Origin: Ignavibacteria bacterium
Lineage (GTDB): Bacteria > Bacteroidota > Ignavibacteria > Tepidaquicellales > OLB5
Reading direction: 5' to 3'
Assembly: GCA_014879675.1 (NCBI GenBank)
Contig: JACSRQ010000123.1
Location: 1-42,761 of the forward strand
DNA length: 42,761 nucleotides
Shown: piece after piece, positions 13,353-19,700 of the stretch
How positions within the stretch are numbered: position 1 is the first letter of the stretch
How the letters are laid out: the number at the start of each line of letters is the position of its first letter
Notes under the pieces: generated by a model
The model's database searches: none
Told to the model about the DNA's origin: nothing
Seen by the model: the letters and a program-made list of their open reading frames with translations, nothing else
Position numbers and translations under genes: made by a program

Positions 13353-13389
13353 TCTTAGCTTCAAAAAGCAACCTCAAGATCTTTAAAAA

Positions 13390-13558
13390 CAAACCCCCGA
13401 CTGAATTCTTCGATGGAATTGTTGATGGTGAAAACACCAACAACTGGGAAATTTGTCCCCCCTTCGCTTCTCAGAAGGGGGGAGCAAAGCTGCAGGTTTC
13501 TAAATAATGGTAATAAATCGTTGAGCAATCTCCTGCGTCAATTCAGGTCGGGGGTTTG
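13390..13558. repeat. structured intergenic repeat, copy A (169 bp)
   Basis: The element begins CAAACCCCCGACTGAATT and ends with its near-exact complement (AATTCAGGTCGGGGGTTTG, one extra base), giving terminal inverted repeats of 18-19 bp. The interior has a strong hairpin, CCCCCCTTC pairing with GAAGGGGGG around an 8-base loop (about 13458-13483). The 3' part of about 95 bp is nearly identical to copy B (about five differences). No coding capacity is seen. It could be a MITE-like non-autonomous element or a structured RNA. Confidence 0.7.
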
Positions 13559-13635
13559 CTTTTAGAATTTTTGCAACAGAAGCGATCATAAAAATGCTTA
13601 GCCACGAATTACACTAATTTCACCAAAATTACAAT

Positions 13636-13901
13636 CAAACCCCCGTTCGTATTCTTCGATGGAAATGAATATCGAGTAAACTTCAATTGCCCAATCCTCA
13701 AGTACACCCTCCCCCCTTTTCAGAAGCAAAAGGGGGGACAAAAGCATGAAGCTGAATTTTTGTCCTCCCTCTTGACTGCCATAGCAGTTCGCTTCCCTGA
13801 CTGCCATAGCAGTTCAGAAGGGGGGAGCAAAGTTACAGGTTTCTAAACAATGATAATAAATCGATGAGCAATCTCCTGCGTCAATTCAGGTCGGGGGTTT
13901 G
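13636..13901. repeat. structured intergenic repeat, copy B (266 bp)
   Basis: It shares the outer CAAACCCCCG...TCGGGGGTTTG ends, the ATTCTTCGATGGAA segment near the left end and the last ~95 bp with copy A, but has an expanded middle. That middle adds a hairpin (CCCCCCTTTT pairing with AAAAGGGGGG around a 7-base loop) and two copies of an 18-bp near-palindrome. The differences look like internal growth and duplication, not random drift. Confidence 0.7.
13774..13816. repeat. tandem duplication of an 18-bp near-palindrome, period 25
   Basis: TGACTGCCATAGCAGTTC occurs at 13774-13791 and again at 13799-13816. Each copy contains a 5-bp stem (ACTGC/GCAGT) around the loop CATA. The 25-bp period equals that of an unrelated tandem repeat at 39766-39815. 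Confidence 0.8.
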
Positions 13902-13973
13902 CTTTTGAGGTCATTCGGAGAGAACTGCGACCATATTTCTTGCACCGTAAATGCCAAAAATCTCTTATTGCAT

Positions 13974-13990
13974 TGACCGCGTAGCGGTCA
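13974..13990. repeat. mini-hairpin TGACCGC-GTA-GCGGTCA
   Basis: A perfect 7-bp stem with a 3-base loop, followed by CACAT. There is no T-run, so it is not a normal terminator. It shares outer bases and the CACAT tail with the hairpin 50 bp downstream. Confidence 0.65.
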
Positions 13991-14023
13991 CACATTTATA
14001 GAAGCAGATCCACCTAAAAAGAA

Positions 14024-14040
14024 TGACCCCAGCGGGGTCA
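14024..14040. repeat. mini-hairpin TGACCCC-AGC-GGGGTCA
   Basis: A perfect 7-bp stem with a 3-base loop, followed by CACAT. The difference from the element at 13974 is compensated on both arms (CGC/GCG versus CCC/GGG), which suggests the fold is what is maintained. Confidence 0.65.
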
Positions 14041-14247
14041 CACATGATTCATTAAATCAAAGCCCTTAAATCCAAAAATACTCAAAAAACCACAATTATA
14101 GACCAAAATCTCCAAAAATCGCTCTCTGAATTTTTCTGTCAGATTCGAAAATATGTTTGTATAGTTCCTGTGGTGATGGCCTAAGCCGGCTGAAGCCTGA
14201 ACCCCCGGAATAAATCAAACTAAACCATAAGGAAAGGTCTATAAGAC

Positions 14248-14439
14248 ATGAAAACCAAACACTTTTTGTTATCAGCATTGGCAGTAATCGTTATCACCGC
14301 TGCATCAGTTTCAAATTTATTCACAAGTGAAAGACCCACAACCCTGAAATGTTATGAGGATCTTTCATACAAAGTAACAGAGGATTCAACCGATGGATAT
14401 AACGGCGGGGGACCGAAGAATCCTCCCACGGGCGAATAA
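14248..14439 (+). CDS. 63-residue exported peptide of unknown function
   Basis: MKTKHFLLSALAVIVITAAS forms a typical signal peptide; the predicted mature part is about 40 residues, has one Cys, and ends with a flexible Gly/Pro-rich tail (GYNGGGPKNPPTGE). A Shine-Dalgarno-like AAGGAAAGG lies about 11 bp before the ATG, and a strong terminator (14462-14482) follows, so it looks like a complete monocistronic unit. Family not recognised. The size and tail suggest a small secreted or processed peptide, but nothing shows what it does. Confidence 0.6.
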   Translation: MKTKHFLLSALAVIVITAASVSNLFTSERPTTLKCYEDLSYKVTEDSTDGYNGGGPKNPPTGE

Positions 14440-14461
14440 TCGGATTGCTTCATAAAAATCG

Positions 14462-17442: not shown

Positions 17443-17853
17443 ATGAGCAAATTAGTACGTTTCGGTATATCAATAGAAAACGAATTACTCCGCCATTTCG
17501 ATACATATAATTCTAAAAAGAAGTATAAAAACCGCTCTGAAGCTATTCGTGACCTTATTCGCGATAAACTTGCTGATGAAAAGATAGTTGATCCCGATGC
17601 CTTTGTATTCGGTATAATTTCGTTCGTTTACGATCATCACAAAAGGGAAATTCAGAAGAATCTGAATACTGTTCAGCATGATTCTTATAAAAGTATCCAG
17701 TTCTCAACTCATATACATCTTGATCACGATAACTGCCTCGAAATAATTATTGTAAAAGATAAGGCTTCAAAAATCAAGCCGCTGGCTGAAAGTATTTTCG
17801 GTTTCAAAGGTGTAAAACAGGGAAAGTTGACGCTCATGGCTTCATATAAATAA
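17443..17853 (+). CDS. nikR: nickel-responsive regulator NikR
   Basis: 136 residues. The N-terminal ribbon-helix-helix (about 1-50; RFGISIENELLRHFD, then NRSEAIRDLIRD) is followed by an ACT-like metal-binding domain with VYDHHKREI, VQHDS, HIHLDHDNCLEIIIV. These contain the NikR nickel ligands: a His in Q-H-D, H-x-H, and the Cys in H-D-N-C-L-E. The length equals that of typical NikR (130-150). It should form a tetramer and repress nickel uptake genes when nickel is plentiful. It heads a probable operon with the TonB receptor 23 bp downstream, and the site just before its ATG suggests autoregulation. Confidence 0.93.
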   Translation: MSKLVRFGISIENELLRHFDTYNSKKKYKNRSEAIRDLIRDKLADEKIVDPDAFVFGIISFVYDHHKREIQKNLNTVQHDSYKSIQFSTHIHLDHDNCLEIIIVKDKASKIKPLAESIFGFKGVKQGKLTLMASYK

Positions 17854-17876
17854 TACTGGAAGGATGAGAATGTTGG

Positions 17877-19700
17877 ATGAAACTCTTTATTGCTTTATTC
17901 TGCTTTATTAGTGCTGTTTCGTTTTCGCAAACTGATTCCGGCAAAACATATTTTACTGATCCAATTGTAGTTACAGGCACAAGGATCGAAACACTTCGCA
18001 AACACATTCCCTTAACAATTTCTACGGTTACAAGAGAAGATATAAATAATACGAACATACCGCAGGTTTTTTCCCTGATACAATCCAGGGTACCCGGCCT
18101 ATTTGTAACCGGGCGCAGTAACCTGGGGTACGGACTTGCACAGGGTTCAGCAGGGCAGTTAACCATAAGGGGTGTTGGCTCGAATCCAAATACACAGGTA
18201 TTGATACTGCTCGACGGAAGACCGCAGTTTATGGGACTCTTCGGGCATCCGCTGCCTGATAACTATATTACTTCCAATGCAGAGCGTATTGAAGTTGTCC
18301 GCGGGCCGTGTTCTTTTCTATATGGTACCAATGCTATGGGCGGCGTGATAAACATCATAACCAGGCGGGAAAAAAATGACGGGTATTCGTTCAATCTCAA
18401 CCAGTCTTACGGAACTTTTGCTTCCCTGATCGGTGATGCGGGTATTGGATACAAAAAAAGTAAGTTTGACGCGTATGTTTCATACAGCCATCAGCAGTCA
18501 AATGGTTCCAGGCCGTATTCAGAGTTTAACCTGAATAATGGTTACCTGAAAACCGGTTATAAAATAAATGATAATTTTGACCTTATTGCGGATGGGAACT
18601 ATACGAAGTTCAGGACCTTTGACCCCGGTTCGCAAAGTGCGCCAAAAATTGATAACTGGGTAGATATTACCCGAATGAACGGCGGCTTCACAATTGAAAA
18701 CCGTAACAATTTTACTGAAGGCGCGTTAAAGCTCATCTATAACTATGGCGAGCACAAAATATACGACGGATTTCATTCCAAAGATAGAGATGTGAATTTA
18801 TCCTTCTACCAGACACTTACTAAAATCAAAAATGCTTCACTCTCGGTTGGAATTGACTACAAAAATTACGGGGGGAATGCTGAAAATACAAAAACGGGCT
18901 TCCAGTTTGGTGAGTACTTTTTGAATGAAACCGGCGGTTACATACATATGCAGTACCTTCTTCTGAAGAAAATTGCAGTTAATGCTGGCTTAAGGTTAGA
19001 GCATAATTCAATATTTGGAAACGAATTGATACCTCAATTCGGCGTTTCTTACAGTGTAAAAGAAAACCTTACTTTCAGAACAAACATTTCGAAAGGATTC
19101 AGGAGTCCGACAATAAGAGAGCTATACCTCTTTCCCGCACCAACTCCGGATCTTAAACCCGAAACAATGTGGAGCCTTGAAGCGGGACTGCAGTACAACT
19201 ACAAAGATATCCTTTCCTTTGAACCGGTTTTTTACTATGAAGAAGGCAGTAACATCATTCAAACCGGCGGCGTTTATCCTAATCTCAAACTCAGCAATTC
19301 CGGCAGCTTTGTTGTGAGGGGAGTTGAGCTTAGCATGGGTATGAAGCCTGTCAAAGGATTTGAGCTCGATCTCTCTGCCTCATATGTAGAGCCTGGGAAA
19401 CTGACTCAAAGCAATCCGCAGCGCAGGATTTTCGCAGAAGCAAAATATCATTACATGGTTTTTGGTATATCCGCATCACTTGAATATACAGAAAAGCTGT
19501 ATGGCGCAAATAATTCAGCAAAAAAACTGCCGGATTATGCATTGTTGAATCTTTCGCTGGCGTATTACCCGGTAAAACAGTTGATGGTTTATCTTGCAGG
19601 AGAAAACCTGTTTGATAGACAATACTTTACTGTTTATGATTACCCAATGCCCGGAAGAACTTTTAAAGCGGGAATAAAATTAAATTATAATATCTTTTAA
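17877..19700 (+). CDS. TonB-dependent outer-membrane receptor, probably for nickel or a nickel chelate
   Basis: 607 residues. Signal peptide MKLFIALFCFISAVSFSQ, TonB-box-like region (DPIVVTGTRIE, about 30-40), plug domain (about 45-165; LILLDGRPQ, then I-E-V-V-R-G-P and G-T-N-A-M-G-G-V-I-N-I-I), then a 22-strand barrel whose last strand ends F-K-A-G-I-K-L-N-Y-N-I-F. The barrel includes the TonB-receptor signature NISKGFRSPTIRELYL. It lacks the N-terminal carboxypeptidase-like domain of SusC-type receptors. Position directly after nikR and before a membrane S-component suggests energised uptake of nickel or a nickel complex, though cobalamin- or siderophore-type ligands cannot be excluded by sequence. 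Confidence 0.88.
   Translation: MKLFIALFCFISAVSFSQTDSGKTYFTDPIVVTGTRIETLRKHIPLTISTVTREDINNTNIPQVFSLIQSRVPGLFVTGRSNLGYGLAQGSAGQLTIRGVGSNPNTQVLILLDGRPQFMGLFGHPLPDNYITSNAERIEVVRGPCSFLYGTNAMGGVINIITRREKNDGYSFNLNQSYGTFASLIGDAGIGYKKSKFDAYVSYSHQQSNGSRPYSEFNLNNGYLKTGYKINDNFDLIADGNYTKFRTFDPGSQSAPKIDNWVDITRMNGGFTIENRNNFTEGALKLIYNYGEHKIYDGFHSKDRDVNLSFYQTLTKIKNASLSVGIDYKNYGGNAENTKTGFQFGEYFLNETGGYIHMQYLLLKKIAVNAGLRLEHNSIFGNELIPQFGVSYSVKENLTFRTNISKGFRSPTIRELYLFPAPTPDLKPETMWSLEAGLQYNYKDILSFEPVFYYEEGSNIIQTGGVYPNLKLSNSGSFVVRGVELSMGMKPVKGFELDLSASYVEPGKLTQSNPQRRIFAEAKYHYMVFGISASLEYTEKLYGANNSAKKLPDYALLNLSLAYYPVKQLMVYLAGENLFDRQYFTVYDYPMPGRTFKAGIKLNYNIF

Follow-up and report, generated by a model that had tools for sequence, protein, structure and literature searches.

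The window analysed here is a stretch of 42 761 nucleotides from an Ignavibacteria bacterium. Between 13390 and 13901 it holds two structured repeats side by side, and the question raised by the locus is what these repeats are and how they came to lie there. In the initial annotation they were described as an undescribed repeat family with terminal inverted repeats; this was borne out, and the family is dispersed in the genome. Coordinates and content were given correctly, as was the statement that neither element encodes a protein. The annotation missed a DUF559 nuclease partner and a larger association between such nucleases and palindromes.

Elements A and B and their repeat family

Element A, the shorter of the two, extends on the forward strand from 13384 to 13564, with TA at both borders; the longer element B, also on the forward strand, extends from 13630 to 13907, with TA at the left border and TG at the right. 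The region had been placed correctly in the initial annotation, and its limits are replaced here by these TA-bounded borders. The terminal inverted repeats were located by sequence comparison at 13386–13401 (forward strand) and 13547–13562 (reverse strand) in A and at 13632–13645 (forward) and 13890–13905 (reverse) in B, and the ends of both elements have the form CAAACCCCCGAC...GTCGGGGGTTTG. The left end of A at 13385–13401 and the right end of B at 13890–13906 are 94% complementary over 17 nt, and within A the stretches 13375–13401 and 13547–13573 are 81% complementary over 27 nt. The sole C6/G6 hairpin of A (13457–13482) was found by exact pattern match and by folding; its counterpart in B is hairpin 1 (13711–13737, exact pattern match). 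Both the shared inverted ends and this G-tract hairpin had been recognized before. Element B contains an extra hairpin (hairpin 2, 13760–13833) with two inserted 18 bp palindromes (13773–13790 and 13798–13815), in agreement with the earlier description of centres that differ by added hairpins. The conserved 3' blocks on the forward strand (13471–13563 in A and 13814–13906 in B) form a direct repeat of 93 nt with 95% identity, close to the previous estimate of about 95 bp and 95%, and the 5' ends (13383–13440 and 13629–13686) are 74% identical across 58 nt. That A and B have just the 3' part in common is not unusual because the middle varies across the whole family. As single strands both copies fold strongly (raw values of −77 kcal/mol for A and −92 kcal/mol for B).

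The window's own genome (3.79 Mb in 255 contigs, 95% complete) was searched for further copies, and these were found, so the pair is not a local duplication. The family comprises roughly twelve near-complete copies and several partial ones, spread over at least eight contigs; apart from the window, copies occur on contigs C43, C61, C130, C137, C202 and C233 and partial copies on C37, C135, C72 and C212. In an alignment of ten copies, A and B among them, the consensus starts with TA and AAAGCCAAACCCCCGA, continues for about 70 nt to hairpin 1 (TCCCCCCTTTT..AAAAGGGGGGA) and after about 20 nt reaches hairpin 2 (TCCCCCCTTCGGCTTCTATGAAGGGGGGA), which is followed by about 75 nt, ATGGGGGTTCGCTTY and a closing TA. 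TA flanks both sides in nine of the ten copies checked. Tandem pairs occur at several places and have one TA in common, and the palindromes are dispersed in the genome as inverted pairs. A profile trained on seven copies, leaving out A, B and one copy on C233 (C233c), recovered B with an E value of 3.6e-22 and A with an E value of 1.2e-13, and when it was run on 400 kb of control DNA, drawn from this genome and from related ones, its best match had an E value of 0.017. The likeness of A and B is thus beyond chance, since a profile of seven other copies finds both.

Several smaller repeats were observed in and around the family. The left part of A holds a different dispersed palindrome, ATTGTTGATGGTGAAAACACCAACAAC, at about 13420–13446; it has many matches, both here and in genomes across the order, and appears from its sequence to be a separate small repeat family. 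At one recurrent spot in the loop of hairpin 2 a tiny palindrome, GACTGCCATAGCAGTTC, or a variant such as CTGACTGCTTTAGCAGTT, is present, both at the two 18 bp sites of B and in the C130, C233 and C72 copies (loci L025, L063, L096 and L104), as if very small repeats were inserting into the hairpins of larger ones. Another dispersed palindrome lies at 13974–13995 and 14024–14045 and on C137 (L058), in the forms TGACCGCGTAGCGGTCACACAT, TGACCCCAGCGGGGTCACACAT and TGACTCCGTAGGAGTCACACAT; both sides of its stem vary and its tail CACACAT is constant. After the second copy on C43, at 18045–18110 (about 645–705 of L029), three short end-like units in tandem, ATCAATGGGGGTTCCCTCTA, ATCAATAGGGTTTTTCTTTTA and ATCAATCGGGGTTTGCTTTTA, each close with TA, so that right ends are repeated there without bodies. 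A small open reading frame (14249–14440, forward strand; about 60 amino acids) lies after the repeats and before the gene that comes next in the window; its start is signal-like and its tail is rich in Gly and Pro.

The DUF559 gene beside the repeats

The domain of unknown function DUF559 is widespread. Copies of the family that are linked to a gene adjoin a DUF559 gene of about 120 amino acids, of the PD-(D/E)XK type and similar to Vsr and homing endonucleases. On C43 two gene-less copies (17547–18045) are followed by the DUF559 reading frame (match at 18164–18469; PF04480, E = 7e-26, above the cut-off) and by another arm of the family. Arms or ends of the window type also lie beside DUF559 in genomes G010 (contigs C154 and C189) and G011 (C117); the link is weaker in G002 (C13) and consists of ends only in G012 (C8). 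Copies that carry the gene differ from simple full-length elements in that the reading frame often lies between complete elements. A profile of 11 diverse DUF559 proteins, which have 17 invariant columns including the core nuclease residues D, E, D-G and H, matches PDB entries 3hrl (8e-30) and 3r3p (4e-6), the latter a mobile-intron protein deposited as a homing endonuclease. By its core residues and family profile the partner is classed as a DUF559/PD-(D/E)XK nuclease, for which cleavage is predicted.

The association of gene and hairpins was examined across the order. A local inverted-repeat score that compares the 250 bp before each gene with the 250 bp after it had a median of 39 in 65 DUF559 genes; in 314 control genes, taken from the same order rather than from each locus, the median was 19 (p = 4e-27). 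Within 100 bp of DUF559 genes the density of pyrimidine/purine hairpins is 5.9 per kb, and at a distance of 1–1.5 kb it is 0.06 per kb. Control regions have 0.055 per kb. At least one side has a hairpin within 300 bp in 57 of 66 DUF559 genes, and both sides do in 45.

At the level of genomes, two exact hairpin patterns, picked after the data had been viewed, were compared with strong DUF559 matches (E ≤ 1e-20). Among the 28 genomes that have a strong match, 26 contain hairpins, and among the 11 that lack one, none does (Spearman 0.88 over the 39 genomes, mostly metagenome assemblies and of common ancestry); within the other family alone the figures are 12 of 14 with the gene and none of ten without it (p = 7e-5). 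These counts take in gene-adjacent hairpins, which make up less than half of the total in the richest genomes; this genome has 36 hairpins for five DUF559 genes. The absence of the hairpins from all 11 genomes without a strong DUF559 gene suggests that the repeats depend on it.

Nuclease and repeat type are also paired. In a tree of 66 DUF559 proteins, five of the six genes linked to window-type repeats form one exclusive clade (91/87), two of the five (G010 C154 and G012) not being independent because they occupy one orthologous site. The sixth, L167, is outside the clade and weakly linked (E = 7e-5). The labels change twice on the tree, against 5.8 changes expected, and none of 500 shuffles gave a number as low. 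Over all types the similarity of the ends correlates with that of the proteins (Mantel p = 0.001), which common descent alone could partly explain.

Insertions in genes and occurrence in other phyla

Presence/absence polymorphism was found in sister families, which have other end types than the window family, and was not seen in the window family itself. Within one genus the uvrC gene is without insert in G008 and G012, carries a short palindromic insert in G002 and contains palindrome, DUF559 and palindrome in frame in this genome, G005 and G009. In the same genus leuS is empty in, for example, G006, contains remnants in this genome and G008, has one hairpin in G012 and has a full in-frame DUF559 in G007. 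The host linkers in uvrC and leuS are hypervariable and the insert junctions are not exact; the pattern could reflect the loss of an ancestral insert just as well as a gain. In-frame DUF559 also occurs inside HsdR and a DNA methylase of relatives, and the loci where it is translated together with the palindromes are L195, L198 and L201 (uvrC), L224 (leuS), L130 and L138 (hsdR) and L134 (DNA methylase).

At one orthologous intergenic site DUF559 with window-type ends is present in G010 and G012, gene-less window-type copies in G002 and G008 and a different palindrome family in G005, with an empty allele in none of the five genomes. No exact empty site or target duplication was resolved at uvrC, leuS or this site. 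The palindrome families found 3' of one small gene differ among genomes of the genus (L338, L340, L342, L123 and L169), and this intergenic site is an insertion hotspot.

A wide scan covered 84 980 named genomes, from which the best 80 loci were taken. Among these, inverted hairpins were found beside DUF559, often of the type CCCTCTCCC..GGGAGAGGG..GGGTGAGGG, and the groups with flanking hairpins among the best 80 are Bacteroidota, Alpha- and Gammaproteobacteria, Chloroflexota, Cyanobacteria, Planctomycetota, Patescibacteria and Desulfobacterota. At the 57 loci with 2 kb on each side hairpin density falls from 4.2 per kb within 100 bp of the gene to about 0.1 per kb at distances over 500 bp; in this named set only 38 of 57 DUF559 genes have a hairpin within 300 bp. 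A DUF559 gene of N. gonorrhoeae has triplex-like repeats on both sides. Plasmid carriage was rejected as the main route, DUF559 being found in just 42 of 72 556 plasmid records.

BoxC/PIT repeats have been known from E. coli since the 1990s. The CCCTCTCCC..GGGAGAGGG..GGGTGAGGG motif is that of the BoxC/PIT/TM_ECO repeat. The end of ycjD, the DUF559 gene of E. coli K-12, falls within a degenerate BoxC, and 168 bp past the end of the gene lies a full BoxC; from sequence and neighbourhood this is a candidate for TM_ECO 9 of PMC4666352. The gene is present in 3366 of 5426 complete E. coli genomes, and two strains that lack it have an efflux-pump islet at its position rather than a clean empty site. 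Holder et al. (2015) reported no mobility activity near BoxC/PIT/TM_ECO repeats and left their origin open (PMC4666352). The window family resembles these repeats in its pyrimidine/purine hairpins, often in inverted pairs (PMC4666352), but is distinct from BoxC in sequence: the consensus CCCTCNCCC-loop-GGGNGAGGG-N3-GGGNGAGGG has no match in the window, and the window copies have no adjacent third strand because the C5 end tract is about 70 nt from the hairpin.

Proposed mobilization and alternative explanations

Elements A and B are best explained, with a probability of about 0.6, as gene-less members of a REPIN/RAYT-like system in which the associated DUF559 nuclease would act as the mobilizer. 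They are probably the non-autonomous members, the gene-linked copies carrying the nuclease between or beside the same arms. What was observed is the family with its dispersal, its link to the gene, the cognate pairing and the sister-family polymorphism. Counting against the reading are the failure to find an exact empty site or target duplication, gene-carrying copies that depart from a simple full-length element, the position of L167 outside the clade and the 38 of 57 genes of the named set with a hairpin within 300 bp. We infer that the nuclease moves the repeats in the following manner. The folded ends would be exposed in single-stranded DNA, for instance on the lagging strand, or by extrusion, and would be recognized by the cognate DUF559 PD-(D/E)XK nuclease, which may then cut or nick the border of the element and a TA-like target; host break repair would copy or join the element at the new place. 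A gene-carrying copy would move itself in cis, and short copies would be moved in trans. The plan would be that of REPINs and their RAYT, with a nuclease of the restriction fold in place of the HUH transposase. A broader reading, in which DUF559 proteins including YcjD mobilize palindromic repeats throughout the bacteria, BoxC/PIT among them, and constitute a third repeat-spreading system, next to DDE-driven MITEs and REPIN/RAYT, with a restriction-fold nuclease that recognizes folded ends, is more tentative and falls a little short of even odds.

The likeness to REPINs and RAYTs lies in short inverted palindrome pairs spread through the genome, some of them inside genes (PMC3733652, PMC3116915), in a single small gene for a nuclease with these palindromes on either side and in the pairing of gene clade with repeat type. 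The enzyme differs: RAYT (TnpA-REP, of the IS200/IS605 superfamily) is an HUH tyrosine transposase, whereas the gene here is DUF559. Unlike REP palindromes, which have GTAG at the foot, neither A nor B contains GTAG or CTAC. By the tests made, the family is therefore not REPIN/RAYT, its adjoining gene being DUF559 rather than Y1 and the tag being absent. The MITEs in Thiomargarita hupL embody the same idea of MITEs derived from a nuclease element, as they are tied to a PD-(D/E)XK_2 gene of the Yhg-A type (PMC4853749), but they involve another nuclease family, have 10 bp direct and 19 bp inverted repeats and concern one element in one genome. Vsr-like homing endonucleases (PDB entry 3r3p) are relatives of DUF559 in sequence; here there is no intron or intein, and the gene is flanked by palindromes. 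In Rickettsia, palindromic elements lie in frame inside essential genes (also PMC3733652). The sister families in uvrC and leuS are similar to them in position and probably differ in sequence. The Rickettsia elements are not known to contain a DUF559 gene. In the literature covered (Caulobacter VsrA, a PD-(D/E)XK survey, BoxC/TM, GTAG/CGTC REPs and Thiomargarita; subscription papers were outside the scope) DUF559 and ycjD are not tied to palindromic repeats, and an earlier report is possible.

The chief rival holds that DUF559 is a selfish gene of the homing type which lands in palindromic repeats spread independently by another route: the nuclease would cut the repeats and be copied into them by break repair. 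Its relationship to homing-endonuclease entry 3r3p fits this, as do the reading frames between complete palindromic elements in uvrC and on C43. The absence of both tested hairpin types from all 11 genomes without strong DUF559 speaks against homing rather than refuting it, and nuclease clade and repeat type go together; we consider this account unlikely, at slightly above one chance in five.

IS630-type MITEs have a TA target, a length of about 200 bp and terminal inverted repeats, and the size, inverted ends and prevailing TA borders of the family would suit classical MITEs of such a DDE transposase. The initial annotation had proposed a search for a transposase with matching ends. A search of the 95%-complete genome gave no DDE_3 domain (PF13358), the 27 open reading frames scanned in the window include no transposase, and the linkage to DUF559 would be left unexplained. 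By gene content the family is not an IS630 MITE; that reading, which predicts an autonomous DDE element with AAAGCCAAACCCCC ends in related genomes, is improbable. Movement by an HUH tyrosine transposase, with DUF559 as a mere neighbour, draws on the general resemblance to REPINs and REPtrons and is more improbable still, given the missing GTAG tag and the fact that the genes found adjoining the family (its neighbours only) are DUF559. Least probable of all is an immobile local duplication of structured DNA or RNA that serves the host, for example in termination or as a non-coding RNA. Strong hairpins and tandem pairs would be expected of it, but the copies are dispersed, the sister families are polymorphic inside genes, a search of the window against Rfam gave no match and none of 33 predicted pairs shows a double, compensatory change in eight copies. 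Of the earlier hint at function or recent mobility, the second part is favoured, the dispersed repeats being probably mobile, and an RNA function was rejected on this covariation result.

With DUF559 as the probable mobilizer, the recurrent pairing of gene and palindromes in many phyla and beside BoxC points to this nuclease as the missing engine behind the spread of such repeats. If so, a restriction-fold nuclease would be added to the possible spreaders of short bacterial palindromes, and the in-frame DUF559 domains in UvrC, LeuRS and HsdR would be explained. Linking the origin of BoxC/PIT with the function of DUF559 would give each a testable role, and the E. coli pair of ycjD and BoxC makes the hypothesis testable.
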